Positions 51,436 to 56,153 of a stretch of 64,000 nucleotides of DNA are shown piece after piece. How positions within the stretch are numbered: position 1 is the stretch's first letter; each line of letters opens with the position of its first letter. This DNA comes from Exiguobacterium artemiae 255-15 (GTDB taxonomy: Bacteria > Bacillota > Bacilli > Exiguobacteriales > Exiguobacteriaceae). The notes under the pieces were generated by a model that saw only the letters and a program-made list of their open reading frames with translations, searched no databases and had not been told where the DNA came from. The translations under genes were made by a program, and so were the position numbers. The DNA lies in the NCBI RefSeq assembly GCF_000019905.1, contig NC_010556.1:2506001-2570000 (forward strand), written 5' to 3'.

Positions 51436-52179
51436 TCATCCGATTTTATCGAACTCCAAAATACTGATGCTTTTCCCGGCGTACAATGTCCGTCCCCGAT
51501 ACCGGGACAGTTTAGCAAACTCAAACAACGTGTCTGTTTCATACAGATGTTCCACTACATAACCAACCTTCTCATCAGAAGCCGATTTCAGATACGTATT
51601 AAAAATCAACCGGTCGCGGTCGACCTTTTGACCGTAAAACAAGGTACAGTCCTCCATACGTCGCGAGGCAATCGGTTGGACGTTTTGTCTTAGATAATCC
51701 GCGTTATGGATACTGATCAGTAATTGACCGTCCGTTGCCAGTAAGTGACGGATATTCCGGAAGAACAACAACAGTTCCCCCCGTGAATACCGTGCAATCG
51801 TCGTACCAGGTAAAATGATTTTATTGAACGCATGGCTTCCCATCACATCGACCACCTCATTGCTGAGCCCGTAGACACGATGCAGGTATGGATCGGCAAT
51901 CCCGGCAATTCGGGTTAATTCCGATTCGACGAGATACAGATCATATCCTTCTGCACACAGTGTGTTAAATAACGTTGCTGAAAAGTTTCCGTGCACCAGG
52001 ACCCGGTCTTCTTTTTGAAGATAACGGCGATACAACATCAGTTCATCGACTTCCGGCAAGATGGCTATTTCCTGATACAGTGCCGTGAACCGGTCGTCAG
52101 CAAACAGATGATCAAAAACCTGAACACGTGAATAACTCCCTTTTCGTGCAAATGGACCGAATAATGGTCTGTCATCCAT
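51436..52179 (-). CDS. SAM-dependent methyltransferase-like protein of the peptide cassette
   Basis: A 247-aa protein. The order of predicted strands and helices resembles class I methyltransferases: DRVLVHGNFSATLFNTL in the place of motif I, YLVESELTRIAGIAD (acidic residue of motif II), KIILPGTTIARY, and LLATDGQLLISIHN before a long loop. Motif I is atypical (HGNFSA rather than a Gly-rich loop), so activity is uncertain. It overlaps the 402-aa gene by 8 bp and follows AAGGAG. As the last gene behind a 48-aa peptide it could modify that peptide. Confidence 0.6.
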   Translation of the reverse strand: MDDRPLFGPFARKGSYSRVQVFDHLFADDRFTALYQEIAILPEVDELMLYRRYLQKEDRVLVHGNFSATLFNTLCAEGYDLYLVESELTRIAGIADPYLHRVYGLSNEVVDVMGSHAFNKIILPGTTIARYSRGELLLFFRNIRHLLATDGQLLISIHNADYLRQNVQPIASRRMEDCTLFYGQKVDRDRLIFNTYLKSASDEKVGYVVEHLYETDTLFEFAKLSRYRGRTLYAGKSISILEFDKIG

Positions 52180-53380
52180 GATAGATCAACTCCTTATACG
52201 TCTGGATCGCCGATTCATAGTCTGTACCAAGCCGCTCCGGTAAGATATCGAACCGTTCCTTTTGATCAGCTTCGAGAATGGCGAGGAATGTCTCATCCGT
52301 TTCAAACAACTGATTCGTCCCCAGTTCGAAGGCGAAACATCCCTCGTTATTTTGAATCCCGATCATCGTCAACGGACCAAGCTTCCCTTCCGTCCGCGGC
52401 AGTTCGAACACGCTGTAAGGCGTCACGAACTGACTTGTTCCTTGAAACGCTGAAGCCAGTTGAAACAGAATCGGATATAAGGCGAGTTGAGTAATCGGAG
52501 CGAGCGCTTCCCATGTCGCCAACTGATTTTGACGTAACTGACAGATACTTAAGTCGAACGCCTCGCTGAGCAATAGCTGCTTTCCATAATCTGCATAGAT
52601 TCCGTCTCTGTGAATGAACAGACGATGGGAGGACGGCATGCCGGTAAGCGTCGCATAATCAAGAATCCCGATCCGCTGTTCCGGATTGGAGACGACACTT
52701 GTCTCATGCCACTTTTTGATGGCAGCATCCAGATCACTGCGCTCAAACGTCGCCAACCGGTCTCTGACACTAAAGGATAACGTATCGGAAAACGCCAGCA
52801 GGACCGGTGTCCGGCTCATCAGTTCGATGACCGGCAAGTCATGCCGGGTCGACTGATCGATGTATAACAAGCTGTTGATTGTCATTTGATCAAACAAAGT
52901 CGGTGTAATCGAGTCGAGCAAATCCGTCGTTTCCACGTAGACGTGACGCAACGGTTGCGGCTGACGCAACGCGGTGTCCGGATAGACACCGGTGAACAAC
53001 GACATCAAGGCATCTTGTAATTCAATCGGTTGTGTATATCCTGTCGTCCCTTCTAACGGAATCGTCTTATCCAAGAAATACGGGTCTCCGAACAAGACGT
53101 CGCCCCGCTCATTAATCAGATGAAACTGAACATGTAACATCCGCTGTTGTAAATACGCGACCAGTCGCAAAGTCCGCTCCCCCGGTCCTCGCAGGACAAA
53201 CAAATAATGTTCGAATTCTTGAAAGTCCATATAGTCGAGTAAATCCAAAAACGTATGTTGATCGTAATCATAACGATCCATTGAGAACCGGTGCTGCTCA
53301 CAAAAAGTCGTGAGGGCATCGGTCGGGTCGAGTTGGTGTAACCAGCCTTCGCTTTCAGAAAGAACCGTTAGTCCGATCAT
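52172..53380 (-). CDS. Unrecognised 402-aa protein of the peptide cassette
   Basis: A 402-aa soluble protein with no signal peptide. I do not recognise the family. Visible features: an N-terminal MIGLTVLSESEGW, a middle region with VLLAFSDTLSFSVRDRLATF and GILDYATLTGMPSSHRL, and a C-terminal TMIGIQNNEGCFAFELGTNQ. It faintly recalls partner proteins of azole-forming (TOMM) peptide clusters, but no YcaO, dehydrogenase or radical SAM enzyme is nearby, so that is only a guess. ATG 53380 lies seven nt after AAGGAG; a TTG at 53401 is an alternative. It follows the 48-aa peptide gene after a terminator hairpin. Confidence 0.6.
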   Translation of the reverse strand: MIGLTVLSESEGWLHQLDPTDALTTFCEQHRFSMDRYDYDQHTFLDLLDYMDFQEFEHYLFVLRGPGERTLRLVAYLQQRMLHVQFHLINERGDVLFGDPYFLDKTIPLEGTTGYTQPIELQDALMSLFTGVYPDTALRQPQPLRHVYVETTDLLDSITPTLFDQMTINSLLYIDQSTRHDLPVIELMSRTPVLLAFSDTLSFSVRDRLATFERSDLDAAIKKWHETSVVSNPEQRIGILDYATLTGMPSSHRLFIHRDGIYADYGKQLLLSEAFDLSICQLRQNQLATWEALAPITQLALYPILFQLASAFQGTSQFVTPYSVFELPRTEGKLGPLTMIGIQNNEGCFAFELGTNQLFETDETFLAILEADQKERFDILPERLGTDYESAIQTYKELIYHG

Positions 53381-53409
53381 ATCCATGCTCCTTTCATCCA
53401 AGTAATATT

Positions 53410-53443
53410 AAAAAAGGCTTCAGACCTGTGACGGAATGAAGCC
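53410..53443 (-). terminator. Terminator between the 48-aa peptide and its downstream genes
   Basis: Minus strand: GGCTTCA, a 14-nt loop, TGAAGCC, then six T. Partial read-through here would give much more peptide mRNA than enzyme mRNA, a common design in peptide natural-product operons. Confidence 0.75.
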
Positions 53444-53459
53444 ACGTCAGCAAGAGACG

Positions 53460-53606
53460 TCATGAAGTTTTCAGTTCTCGTTTCGCCGGCGGTTTGATCC
53501 GGTCCATTTCCCGACTTGCCAAGGGTGCGACCGAGACAGCAGCAGCATTTAAGCACCAGCCGTAAGATGTCATGGTCCGGCGCGATTCTTTAAAGGTGAG
53601 ATTCAT
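53460..53606 (-). CDS. 48-aa peptide, candidate precursor of a modified peptide
   Basis: A 48-residue peptide beginning MNLTFKESRRTMTSYGWCLN, with a small-residue stretch AAAVSVAPLAS and a basic C-terminal tail RIKPPAKRELKTS. AAAGGGG lies eight nt before the ATG and a terminator follows the stop. It has no Sec signal, so it would be a cytoplasmic substrate or leader-core peptide. Its position at the head of a two-enzyme operon, next to a peptide-responsive regulator, suggests a ribosomally made modified peptide. One Cys, one Trp and several Ser/Thr residues are possible modification sites. Function is inferred from context only. Confidence 0.6.
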   Translation of the reverse strand: MNLTFKESRRTMTSYGWCLNAAAVSVAPLASREMDRIKPPAKRELKTS

Positions 53607-53672
53607 AGGAGTTACCCCTTTCATTCGTTTAAAATGGCAGACAACACGTTGACGACTTGTTGAACTAAAAGT

Positions 53673-53702
53673 TTGGTATCCGATCCCGTTCCCTCTTATA
53701 AT
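53673..53702 (+). promoter_or_regulatory. Promoter of the PlcR-like regulator
   Basis: TTGGTA (53673-53678), 18-nt spacer, TATAAT (53697-53702), 51 bp before the regulator start. The divergent peptide promoter must lie in the same 147-bp gap, which also has an inverted repeat CAACA...TGTTG at about 53642-53662. Confidence 0.6.
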
Positions 53703-53753
53703 GGAAAATGGTATCGTTTTCTCAAATCCACTGGACAGAAAGGACAGAACCCG

Positions 53754-54638
53754 ATGGATCAATTCACGTCACCGCAGATTGGTCTGGCCCTTCGCCGCCT
53801 TCGCAAGAAACATAATCTGACGCAGAAGGATTTGGCGAATGGAATTTGCAGCCAAGCGGAAATCAGTAAAATTGAAAGTGGAACACATTCTCCGACCGTT
53901 GATTTGTTATATGCGTTATCACGAAGATTACAAGTTCCTATCAACACGTTTTTGGATCATACCAACTATCGAGAATCCCTAAAAATATTAGATGAGAACT
54001 TATTAGTTCGCTTTCGAAATAGTGAGTTTCAGTCTATTTATCAAGAAACTCAAAAGATGATAAATTCTAGTCCTCTCGATCGCGAATTAAATTTGCTTGT
54101 GAGATACTTTTATTATCTGAGTTCTTATCGTTTGAAAAAAATTGACTATAGAACTTGTATAATTGGTTTACAACAACTTTCAGAATATTATTCTACGTTA
54201 CATTATTCACCAAGTATGATATTAAGAATCAAATCTGCAATCGCAATATTGCACTTCGAAAACAAAAGTTATAAACATAGTAGAACTGTTTACGAAGAAC
54301 TAATGGAACTTGACTTTGATAGTGATGAATTAATAGTTGAACGAATTAGAATTCATTATAATTACTCGAAAATTTTAATGAAGTTAAATGCTGTCGAGAA
54401 AGCATTGCTCGTTGTTGAAGAAGCAATTAAAATAAGTCTATTTGAAAAAGATATGTCTTTATTAGGACAACTCTATTCTCAAAAGGGTGAGTGCCAGGAG
54501 TTATTAAACTTTTCTTTTGATGAAATTTCTAATTCATACACTAAAGCGTTCCTGTTATTTGATCTAATGGAGATAAGAGAATACCGTCAAATAATTTTGG
54601 AAACGAAATTCAAATTTATAAAAAATGCTTTAGAATGA
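53754..54638 (+). CDS. PlcR-type peptide-responsive transcriptional regulator
   Basis: A 294-aa RRNPP-family regulator. Residues about 10-65 are an XRE-type helix-turn-helix (LRRLRKKHNLTQKDLANGIC, EISKIESG). The rest is a TPR array closely resembling PlcR of the B. cereus group, for example LKKIDYRTCIIGLQQL, YNYSKILMKL, and SLLGQLYSQKGECQELL before SYTKAFLLFDLMEI. Such proteins bind an imported short peptide and then DNA. The convergent gene 12 bp downstream encodes a PapR-like precursor. ATG 53754 follows AAAGGA. The first ~200 bp have normal GC; from about 53960 the gene becomes very AT-rich, suggesting a chimeric or transferred origin. Confidence 0.88.
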   Translation: MDQFTSPQIGLALRRLRKKHNLTQKDLANGICSQAEISKIESGTHSPTVDLLYALSRRLQVPINTFLDHTNYRESLKILDENLLVRFRNSEFQSIYQETQKMINSSPLDRELNLLVRYFYYLSSYRLKKIDYRTCIIGLQQLSEYYSTLHYSPSMILRIKSAIAILHFENKSYKHSRTVYEELMELDFDSDELIVERIRIHYNYSKILMKLNAVEKALLVVEEAIKISLFEKDMSLLGQLYSQKGECQELLNFSFDEISNSYTKAFLLFDLMEIREYRQIILETKFKFIKNALE

Positions 54639-54650
54639 ATCATTAGTTGA

Positions 54651-54968
54651 TTAAGCAAGATCACGCTTTACTGAAAACTCGAACGGGATTTCTTTTGCTA
54701 CGTCACGCTTTACTGAAAACTCGAACGGGATTTCTTTCGCTACGTCACGCTTTACTGAAAATTCGAATGGAATTTCTTTCGCTACGTCACGCTTTACTGA
54801 AAATTCGAATGGAATTTCTCTTGCTACGTCACGCTTTACTGAAAATTCGAATGGAATTTCTTTTGCTACGTCAGTTTTAATATTGAGATTTGATGCTCCA
54901 TTAAAACCAAGACTTAATGATAGTGTTGCTACACCTATTAGAATTCCTAATTTCTTTTTTAAGTTCAT
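54651..54968 (-). CDS. PapR-like pheromone precursor with five tandem peptide units
   Basis: A 105-aa secreted precursor. A Sec signal peptide (MNLKKKLGILIGVATLSLSL, cut near FNGAS) is followed by NLNIKT and five near-identical 14-residue units, DVAKEIPFEFSVKR (unit 2 has R for K). The core IPFEF differs by one residue from LPFEF at the C-terminus of B. cereus PapR, the ligand of PlcR. Here the core is internal, so cutting on both sides (perhaps at the KR pair) is needed. AGGAGG lies nine nt before ATG 54968; a longer frame to 55088 is rejected. It is convergent with the PlcR-like gene. Role as autoinducer is inferred from both partners. Confidence 0.85.
   Translation of the reverse strand: MNLKKKLGILIGVATLSLSLGFNGASNLNIKTDVAKEIPFEFSVKRDVAREIPFEFSVKRDVAKEIPFEFSVKRDVAKEIPFEFSVKRDVAKEIPFEFSVKRDLA
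54662..54871. repeat. Five tandem 42-bp coding repeats
   Basis: Five head-to-tail 42-bp units at 54662, 54704, 54746, 54788 and 54830 encode the pheromone units. The two encoding the C-terminal copies use CGAACGGGA, the other three CGAATGGAA; units also differ at the base pair changing CTTTTGC to CTTTCGC or CTCTTGC. The pattern fits stepwise duplication. Confidence 0.95.
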
Positions 54969-55036
54969 AATGAATAACCTCCTAATTTTTTTGTCTAGCT
55001 CTGTATCAACATCATATAACCTTAGACCCCCCTCGG

Positions 55037-55057
55037 ATATTCGAATACGAATATTCG
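55037..55057. promoter_or_regulatory. Double palindrome upstream of the PapR-like gene
   Basis: Two abutting 10-bp palindromes, TATTCGAATA (55038-55047) and CGAATATTCG (55048-55057), also form the inverted repeat ATATTCG-AATA-CGAATAT (55037-55054). They lie about 70 bp upstream of the pheromone start, a likely operator site. They do not match the B. cereus PlcR box. Confidence 0.6.
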
Positions 55058-55065
55058 ATACATTT

Positions 55066-55138
55066 TGCACATTATTTACACTTACCACACCTTTCGTCTT
55101 AGGTCATAGGTCCTGAAACGTGCATATTATTTACATTT
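55066..55138. repeat. Two 18-bp direct repeats upstream of the PapR-like gene
   Basis: TGCACATTATTTACACTT (55066-55083) and TGCATATTATTTACATTT (55121-55138) match at 16 of 18 positions and start 55 bp apart. Each contains half-sites TGCA and TACA seven bases apart, vaguely like the TGnA...TnCA core of PlcR boxes but with wider spacing. Regulatory meaning is inference. Confidence 0.5.
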
Positions 55139-55223
55139 TATCCACCTTTGTGTCGATAAAGTGTATGAAAATAGATTTTTTAGAATATTCACTCACGCTC
55201 GTCTTTATGATTCTTTCGTATAC

Positions 55224-55266
55224 AAAAACCCGCTTCGTCTGCTGCACGCAAACGAAACGGGTTTAA
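55224..55266 (-). terminator. Terminator of the 57-aa membrane protein gene
   Basis: Minus strand: AAACCCGTTTCGT pairs with ACGAAGCGGGTTTTT around a 13-nt loop. It immediately follows the stop at 55268. Confidence 0.85.
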
Positions 55267-55267
55267 T

Positions 55268-55441
55268 TTATTTTGATGAACGGCGCAGTGCAATGAAATA
55301 CCCTACCCCAAGTAAGACGATCAGTCCGAGCAAAATGCTGCTAACCGTCGTTCGGGCAGGTGATTCCGGAATCCACAGACCAATTGCAAGATTGATTGCC
55401 GCAATCAATAAGACAAGCCAGACGATGATTTTAGGTCTCAT
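55268..55441 (-). CDS. 57-aa two-helix membrane protein, unknown function
   Basis: A 57-aa protein starting MRPKIIVWLVLLIAAINLAI, with two hydrophobic helices around IPESPARTT and a basic tail (RRSSK). GGAGGA lies before ATG 55441; a longer frame to 55489 lacks a ribosome binding site. It ends at its own terminator. No family is recognised. Confidence 0.6.
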   Translation of the reverse strand: MRPKIIVWLVLLIAAINLAIGLWIPESPARTTVSSILLGLIVLLGVGYFIALRRSSK

Positions 55442-55571
55442 TACTTCCTCCTCCACTTCGACGTTTCTTGATTTGTTTTTCTTCGTCAAAAACTTACAAA
55501 ATCCCTCTTATTCGAAACATCCTGTTATGATATGTTGACAGAAGACGATTTTTAACAAGGGGGACCTATGG

Positions 55572-56153
55572 ATGAAAAAGTTAGCAGTATTTTGTGGTTC
55601 TAAAGATGGAGCAACACCCATTTTCCGGCAAGCCGCAACAACACTCGGGACGACGCTCGCAGCGCATCAAATCGGACTTGTCTATGGCGGTTCACGTGTC
55701 GGGACGATGGGCGCCGTTGCGGATGCTGTCCTCGCAGCCAACGGACATGCAGTCGGTGTCCTGCCTCATTTCTTGCAGGAAAAGGAGATTGCCCATCCGA
55801 ACCTGACGGAACTTCACCTCGTCGAATCGATGCACGACCGGAAAGCGAAGATGGCCGAGCTTGCGGACGGCTTCATCATCTTGCCCGGTGGTCCGGGAAC
55901 GATGGAAGAGTTTTTTGAAGTTTTTACGTGGGCACAGCTCGGTCTTCACGAAAAGCCGTGTGGCATCTTAAACATTGACGGCTACTATGACCCGCTCGTT
56001 GCCTTGTTTCAGCAGATGGAGACACAAGGTTTCCTGATTCCGGAACACGCGGCGATGCTGATTGTAGAATCGGATCCGGAACGGTTGCTCGAACGATTCC
56101 GGACGTATCATGCGCCGCAGGTCAAGACGTACATGAACACAAAACAAACGTAA
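55572..56153 (+). CDS. LOG-family (TIGR00730) Rossmann-fold protein
   Basis: A 193-aa protein of the LOG family, related to enzymes releasing cytokinin-type bases from nucleoside 5'-monophosphates. Signatures: KKLAVFCGSKDGA, VYGGSRVGTMGAVADAVL and PGGPGTMEEFFEVFTWAQLG, including the conserved Arg and PGGxGTxxE motif. Bacterial members probably act as nucleotide phosphoribohydrolases. AGGGGG precedes the start. Monocistronic. Confidence 0.92.
   Translation: MKKLAVFCGSKDGATPIFRQAATTLGTTLAAHQIGLVYGGSRVGTMGAVADAVLAANGHAVGVLPHFLQEKEIAHPNLTELHLVESMHDRKAKMAELADGFIILPGGPGTMEEFFEVFTWAQLGLHEKPCGILNIDGYYDPLVALFQQMETQGFLIPEHAAMLIVESDPERLLERFRTYHAPQVKTYMNTKQT

Follow-up and report, generated by a model that had tools for sequence, protein, structure and literature searches.

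A precursor array facing a PlcR-like receptor gene

The window analyzed here is a 64,000-nucleotide stretch of Exiguobacterium artemiae 255-15 (contig NC_010556.1, positions 2,506,001 to 2,570,000), and all coordinates are positions within it. The locus of interest holds two convergent genes, a PlcR-like receptor and a putative pheromone precursor, with the following features.

53754..54638, plus strand: PlcR-like RRNPP receptor of 294 aa, running toward the precursor
53787..53948, plus strand: receptor HTH domain, nearly invariant across the genus
54000..54623, plus strand: receptor RNPP_C (TPR) domain, predicted to sense the peptide, hypervariable
54639..54650: 12-bp gap between the convergent stop codons, no terminator-like site called
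54651..54968, minus strand: putative precursor gene of 105 aa for a multi-copy pheromone, with five EIPFEF units
54675..54689, minus strand: core copy 5, IPFEF, then the tail SVKRDLA
54717..54731, minus strand: core copy 4, IPFEF
54759..54773, minus strand: core copy 3, IPFEF
54801..54815, minus strand: core copy 2, IPFEF, in a unit with AREIPFEF
54843..54857, minus strand: core copy 1, IPFEF
54861..54968, minus strand: precursor leader, 36 codons, Sec-like signal sequence by inspection, within the exchanged block
54978..54983, minus strand: AGGAGG ribosome-binding site ahead of the precursor ATG
55011..55016, minus strand: TATGAT, -10-like by inspection, about 20 bp past the operator, with no good -35, the operator occupying that place
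55037..55054: perfect palindrome ATATTCG-N4-CGAATAT, the proposed operator, whose 16-bp core ends 69 bp from the precursor ATG

The precursor frame runs on the minus strand from an ATG at 54968-54966 to a stop codon at 54653-54651, and an alternative GTG start would extend it to 55088. All 19 aligned loci (our own locus counted) retain both this ATG and the AGGAGG. A sequence-only reading of this stretch had described five 14-residue EIPFEF units in exactly this frame, and they are there: TRF called a repeat at 54661-54873 with a period of 42 nt, 5.1 copies, and 95% matches, and each of the five 14-residue units carries EIPFEF. The spacers between the five IPFEF cores read SVKRDVA(K/R)E, and the fifth core is not C-terminal because its tail comes after it. 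The leader, MNLKKKLGILIGVATLSLSLG, resembles a Sec signal on inspection, as the same reading had proposed. The terminal KR that it noted in each unit does not extend to the whole genus; of the 18 genomes in which one spacer or more can be read, 8 have KR in every readable spacer and the other 10 have it in none, and spacers without it carry KN, KQ, KP, or RT. With KR so restricted, a role for it as a dibasic signal like that of yeast alpha-factor is not supported. Yeast alpha-factor also has several pheromone copies in one secreted precursor; the array here differs in having no conserved dibasic site and no homology to it, and import and an intracellular receptor are expected.

Within its own genome, the precursor was the sole match in the precursor search. 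Two Pfam matches, OSR1_C (1.8e-5, 25.2 bits at a cut-off of 22.4, with no single stretch passing) and Rho_GDI (0.0075), were set aside as repeat artefacts, and the match to Bacillus_PapR stayed under its cut-off (E 0.099). Rfam yielded no match within window positions 53300-55600. No terminator was called between receptor and precursor, the sole hairpin being the operator palindrome, which was not above shuffles. In 6 of the 17 loci that hold both genes (L003, L004, L008, L013, L014, and L018), the stop codons of the facing genes touch (gap 0) or overlap. As no terminator was called in the window gap either, the two transcripts may overlap as antisense RNAs.

In domain searches, the receptor matched RNPP_C (E 1.4e-38) and HTH_3. 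PlcR was its best PDB match by sequence (1.6e-37), and a fold search with an AlphaFold model (pLDDT 86.7) returned 3u3w, the PlcR-PapR7-DNA complex, as the best hit (8.3e-15, TM 0.63-0.66). The order typical of RRNPPA receptors of the HTH and five-TPR kind, an HTH and then a TPR-type RNPP_C domain, was recovered by domain search, model, and PDB fold search. In a mapping through the alignment to PlcR from the PDB, all 18 receptors keep residues Q237, Y275, and N201 and have Ser for N159; K87 is replaced by R or Q, and K89 is not conserved. We take N159 and N201 of PlcR to be peptide contacts. According to PMC6568020, Pro4, Glu6, and Phe7 of PapR7 are required, Glu6 contacts Lys89, Gln237, and Tyr275 of PlcR, and K87 is a peptide-contacting residue. 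The genome also encodes seven SBP_bac_5 matches, one of them partial, and five S8-peptidase matches.

Upstream of the receptor and divergent from it lies a 48-aa ORF (MNLTFKE...YGWC...; 53460-53606, minus strand), and a simple pattern found related ORFs in 9 of 18 loci. Beyond it are two genes without family assignment (51436-53401, minus strand), one of which, of 247 aa, matches a daptide-type RiPP methyltransferase, though below the threshold (E 2.8e-4). The ORF and its two neighbors possibly form a RiPP cluster.

Conservation of the array, its copies, and its proposed operator

The precursor was present in 19 of 19 Exiguobacterium genomes and 0 of 19 genomes of the sister genus, the other genus of the family. 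RNPP_C matches were distributed in the same way (19 of 19 versus 0 of 19), and among the matches listed for the sister genus, the receptor profile found only HTH-type ones (best E 1.9e-9). Every one of the 17 loci holding both genes had them tail-to-tail, with a small precursor, secreted by inspection, adjoining the receptor. The arrays of G006 and G012 are broken at contig ends; each of the 17 unbroken arrays has 2 to 9 copies of the predicted mature peptide, at least two in one precursor throughout, and in each of them the last core is followed by a tail instead of being C-terminal. Copy numbers are possibly too low in several genomes because these are drafts, in which arrays can collapse. 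The longest of the 17 unbroken precursors has 170 aa.

The core types across the genus were IPFEF, LPFEF, IPLEY, LPLEY, LPTEF, LPAEF, LPPEY, LPPEH, and LPYEY, so that the Pro and Glu required in PapR7 are found in these cores as well. Both residues are invariant in the three core copies common to all 12 aligned precursors. Across the 19 precursors, Glu is kept in 96 of 97 cores, the exception being LPPKH in G004; the search pattern itself demanded Pro.

To compare copies within an array, we counted the distinct codons at each of the five core positions and at the next six spacer positions. Over 18 arrays (G006 omitted), core variants were 57 silent and 3 amino-acid changing, versus 20 and 24 in the spacers. 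With one of two near duplicates dropped (G016, the near duplicate of G010) and the broken G012 piece kept, the 17 remaining arrays gave 51:2 for the core and 17:17 for the spacer (silent:amino-acid; Fisher p 4.8e-7). The copies look selected because their core codons differ almost solely silently, and the counts in core and spacer indicate copies old enough for silent drift whose cores have been held. Present in all 19 genomes of the genus and with this pattern of core variation, the precursor repeat is beyond chance.

The operator proposed upstream of the precursor, a perfect ATATTCG-TATT-CGAATAT, was found in 19 of 19 loci, 68 or 69 bp from the ATG. Exact TATTCG-N4-CGAATA occurred twice in 17 of the 19 genomes and three times in the other 2, and a reversed-pattern control was absent from all 19. 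The second conserved dyad lies 77-80 bp before a 265-aa gene, which we refer to as orf265, in every genome; orf265 itself was found in all 19 genomes of the genus and in none of the 19 from the sister genus. Neither third site is conserved: that of G015 falls inside a CDS, and that of G014 just before or within a 172-aa frame (L077:4208), where it is possibly a species-specific target. In the sister genus, one exact match was seen in 2 of 19 genomes, which is chance level because the reversed pattern was equally frequent (one match in 2 of 19). At up to two mismatches, our own genome has 143 dyad places versus 106 for the reversed pattern. Among the one-mismatch sites listed, 9 of 10 lie inside longer ORFs, three of them being copies of one repeated gene, and for this reason such sites were not taken as targets.

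About 20 bp past both conserved dyads, inspection found a conserved -10-like stretch and no clear -35, an arrangement that would fit activation. A promoter scan called 9 sigma-70-like sites versus 6.1 (sd 2.4) in shuffles, none of them at the proposed -10. The site counts suggest a predicted regulon of two sites, the promoters of the precursor and of orf265. For orf265, the only Pfam match was SPDY at E 0.13, and NCBIfam and PADLOC gave nothing; searches of the PDB found no sequence match, profile matches above E 0.5 only, and, with a model of pLDDT 76.9, no fold match at E 0.001.

The recognition stretch of the receptor HTH in chromosomal Exiguobacterium is QAEISKIE. It also occurs, as CSQAEISKIE, in orphan PlcR-like paralogues, which are for that reason candidate binders of the dyad as well. 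These orphan regulators, often in tandem and without an obvious precursor, are found elsewhere in the genus (G000:C1:1691842-1693618; L091-L099), beside a gene that we take to resemble an azoreductase; in our own genome, they lie about 17 kb from the second operator site.

Sensor and signal travel together

Across 19 genomes, the mean pairwise amino-acid difference was 0.062 for the HTH, 0.460 for the sensor, and 0.206 for orf265. The edges of the variable block were read from four chosen pairs with different cores (L010-L009, L015-L018, L006-L005, and L001-L005). Nucleotide identity in these pairs was 0.85-0.99 over the HTH codons, fell to 0.53-0.63 across the sensor, 0.27-0.71 across the array, and 0.52-0.61 across the leader, and rose again to 0.96-0.99 over the 130-bp promoter and 0.91-0.96 in the next gene. 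Averages upstream of the receptor were 0.68-0.96, the low values including a stretch that one locus lacks coverage of, and the covered 60-base windows there were mostly above 0.9. The block of sensor, array, and leader measures about 1.0-1.1 kb, and a same-core control pair (L010-L011) gave segment values of 0.957-1.0. Since this block of roughly 1 kb differs between close relatives while both edges, the HTH and the promoter, are similar, signal and receptor appear to switch together.

The nearest neighbor of a genome carried the same core in 14 of 19 cases when chosen by sensor and in 2 of 19 when chosen by orf265, with Spearman correlations of 0.47 (sensor-core), 0.00 (orf265-core), and -0.03 (sensor-orf265). 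Of 5000 permutations, 0 gave a partial rank correlation as high as this (1 of 5000 with another seed). Without near duplicates, 17 genomes gave 11 of 17 versus 1 of 17, at 5 of 5000 permutations; with the neighboring LOG-family gene as the marker, 15 genomes gave 10 of 15 versus 0 of 15, at 30 of 5000. Collectively, these data show that sensor and signal travel together, apart from both markers, orf265 and the LOG gene. The sensor-core correlation is no proof of specificity by itself, because physical linkage alone yields correlation.

Related systems and a proposed mechanism

Single-copy relatives of the system were found outside the chromosomal loci of the genus. Of 28 plasmid records with receptor relatives, nine were examined; three had a convergent single-copy precursor, and a simple filter found none in the other six. 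The precursor ends in LPFEN in Planococcus versutus, IPFEH in P. maritimus, and LPFEH on the plasmid of Exiguobacterium sp. Helios. All three have a PlcR box upstream, which is exact in both Planococcus loci and deviates at one position in Helios. A further locus from the class (L194) has a convergent single-copy LPFEF and an exact PlcR box. With L193 and L110 counted once as the same P. versutus locus (99.9% over 1700 bases), there are four independent convergent single-copy systems, with PlcR boxes 57-65 bp before the ATG (61 in L110). They share with the Exiguobacterium arrays the receptor type, the tail-to-tail order, a PapR-like core, and the distance of the box. They differ in having one C-terminal core, the canonical PlcR box, and the recognition stretch QSEISRIE, so that the HTH differs with the box: QSEIS-RIE goes with TATGnA and QAEIS-KIE with TATTCG. 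These systems suggest that the convergent order may be older than the array and that operator and recognition helix probably changed together on the chromosomal lineage. They also bear on the proposal, made in the sequence-only reading, of a PapR-type multi-copy pheromone precursor beside a PlcR-like receptor; conserved Pro and Glu in the core, Q237, Y275, and N201 in 18 of 18 receptors, and sister precursors that end at the core behind a PlcR box all argue in its favor at the level of sequence.

Across 398 genomes of the class, the precursor profile had matches in 23, 19 of them Exiguobacterium. One match (G143) was dropped because its frame lies within a long repetitive ORF of surface type or on the strand opposite to it; there were three further precursor-like matches outside the genus. 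Precursors with six copies of VPEPW (L154:1492-1836) and seven copies of IPEPW (L155:1492-1878) sit beside HTH proteins of 443-445 aa, the size of NprR. At L215:2224-2811, a precursor of 195 aa that repeats DLPSQHS or DLPSKHS 12 times comes after a PlcR-like receptor on the same strand. A survey of 40 loci from the class is no census; it recognized the regulator in 35 of the 40 and missed the 12-copy L215 system. At L200:2436-2609, in another bacterial family, a convergent precursor with two copies of AGTLPDIY lies near a PlcR-like receptor. Among 600 pattern stretches in viral contigs, there was no relative.

Multi-copy precursors are not new in kind. PMC9765709 gives up to six peptide copies per precursor for AimR, NprR, PlcR, and Rap, and PMC11343458, which also shows that internal copies are processed in phage Rap-Phr systems, gives up to eight for Phr; the sequence-only reading had taken a five-fold PapR-type precursor as new, and this is not supported for multi-copy precursors as such. 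The 12 copies at L215 exceed both figures. As in Phr105, Phr3T, and the NprX- and PlcR-type multi-copy precursors, several copies of the mature peptide are predicted here, and the internal ones would need cuts on both sides, which agrees with what had been expected of the array. For Phr105 and Phr3T peptides, processing has been shown, in the case of Phr105 as release of internal copies by extracellular proteases, with synthetic pieces and culture supernatants (PMC11343458); here it is predicted, with five S8-peptidase matches in the genome. The Exiguobacterium arrays differ further in spanning a whole genus sample, with up to nine copies, none C-terminal in the 17 unbroken arrays, core-specific selection, and apparent exchange of the block.

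The comparison with PlcR-PapR of the Bacillus cereus group is close in several respects. Shared features are a receptor of HTH and RNPP_C with PlcR as the best PDB match by sequence and fold, an adjacent secreted precursor that keeps the Pro and Glu of PapR7 (ADLPFEF), a 6-4-6 dyad before the pheromone gene, and several pherotypes, of which PMC3171730 describes four for PlcR-PapR. In contrast, the PlcR-PapR precursor lies downstream on the same strand and has one C-terminal copy, where ours is tail-to-tail (17 of 17 loci with both genes) with 2-9 internal copies (17 of 17 unbroken arrays). The PlcR operator is TATGnA-N4-TnCATA (consensus from PMC2464732), and its box, TATGnAnnnnTnCATA, does not precede the pheromone gene here; all 19 loci have TATTCG-N4-CGAATA instead. 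The PlcR regulon comprises 45 genes by the account in PMC2464732, versus two conserved exact sites in Exiguobacterium. We file the pair under RRNPPA on its HTH and five TPRs and not under strict PlcR-PapR, because the box, the strand order, and the single C-terminal peptide of the latter are not found. What looks new is the tail-to-tail exchange block of about 1 kb, the dyad replacing the PlcR box, and the second conserved site before orf265.

The polymorphic region of comQXP has constant flanks, and its products include a membrane kinase and a modified peptide, proteins unrelated to the cytoplasmic receptor and array described here. The likeness is in the arrangement, comQXP of Bacillus subtilis being a polymorphic signal-plus-sensor locus that gives pherotypes (PMC4408185). 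We found no publication announcing the Exiguobacterium system in a search that left most subscription literature outside. The genus is unnamed in the main texts of PMC9765709, PMC11343458, PMC10075063, and PMC12700828, whose supplements may contain it, and where PMC3171730 names PlcR-PapR, it does so for the B. cereus group only.

The best explanation of the locus, and in our judgment a highly probable one, is a PlcR-like RRNPP quorum-sensing pair whose precursor holds several pheromone copies in tandem; the homology is firm, and the function is what we infer from it. The precursor would be exported by Sec, and extracellular proteases would trim both sides of each core to give peptides of 7 to 9 residues ending in (I/L)PxE(F/Y/H). 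An oligopeptide permease would re-import the peptide, which is predicted to bind the TPR groove, whereupon a receptor dimer would bind ATATTCG-N4-CGAATAT at the usual place of the -35 and activate its own pheromone gene, a positive feedback, together with orf265. The tail-to-tail order makes neighbors of the sensor domain and the pheromone, with the constant HTH at one end and the constant promoter at the other. Recombination in these constant ends could then swap signal and receptor jointly and leave DNA binding and targets untouched, while repeat turnover and purifying selection on the core would keep the copies of an array alike.

If the array were a neutral by-product of repeat slippage, one copy, such as the last, would yield the pheromone; tandem repeats do expand and contract readily, and copy number runs from 2 to 9 among related species. 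The codon variants (51:2 in the core against 17:17 in the spacer), at least two copies in all 17 unbroken arrays, and a last core that is C-terminal in 0 of 17 make this very unlikely. A secreted repeat protein acting as a bacteriocin, an adhesin, or another structural product, and not as a signal, we consider extremely unlikely. Repeats and secretion alone would fit it, as would the candidate RiPP-like ORF upstream of the receptor, but the gene faces a PlcR-like receptor tail-to-tail in every one of the 17 loci with both genes, and its core is the PapR core that stands once at the C-terminus in the sister systems and changes together with the sensor. It is also unlikely, though less so, that the dyad is bound by an orphan PlcR-like paralogue or another regulator and that the receptor of the pair has other targets. 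The CSQAEISKIE of the orphans and their distance of about 17 kb from the second site in our own genome speak for such a binder; against it, the dyad in all 19 loci shares its 6-4-6 geometry and its place before the precursor gene with the PlcR box of the sister systems, and the HTH changes with the box.

The history of the pherotypes can be read in two ways. We lean, with limited confidence, toward a purpose-shaped exchange block, in which sensor and array sit between constant HTH and promoter/operator ends, so that one recombination would swap both and leave DNA binding and the two-promoter regulon as they are; the operator would have moved away from the PlcR box in step with the recognition helix, and orf265, confined to the genus in our sample (19 of 19 genomes versus 0 of 19 in the sister genus), would be the output. 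The other reading, that the classes are old lineages under long-term balancing selection, a trans-species polymorphism without recent exchange, is possible but somewhat doubtful. Receptors that share a core across distant species have diverged as far as other genes have, which speaks for old pherotype classes: G000-G003 gave 0.705 for the sensor, 0.693 for orf265, and 0.729 for the LOG gene. Some blocks, on the other hand, look recently moved. In G006-G009, the sensor stands at 0.986 and orf265 at 0.838, which may reflect a recent move of the block, a reading weakened by the adjacent LOG gene at 0.948 and by the chance that orf265 itself recombines; a second such pair, G010-G011, has 0.558 for the sensor, 1.000 for orf265, and 0.955 for the LOG gene. 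Balancing selection and recent exchange may both act.

The exchange-block reading would supply a simple reason for the tail-to-tail order, namely, the joint exchange of signal and sensor. More broadly, Exiguobacterium would offer, outside Bacillus, a system of the PlcR type whose predicted regulon is small (two promoters) and whose signal varies naturally among otherwise close relatives; such a system lends itself to direct tests of specificity, of what copy number is worth, and of how internal copies mature. Systems of this kind can also slip past detectors. The default precursor length in RRNPP_detector is 10-100 aa (PMC10075063), and the limit stated in PMC9765709 is 20-120 aa, so that long arrays can be missed; the precursor described here has 105 aa, and the longest from an unbroken array in the genus exceeds both limits.
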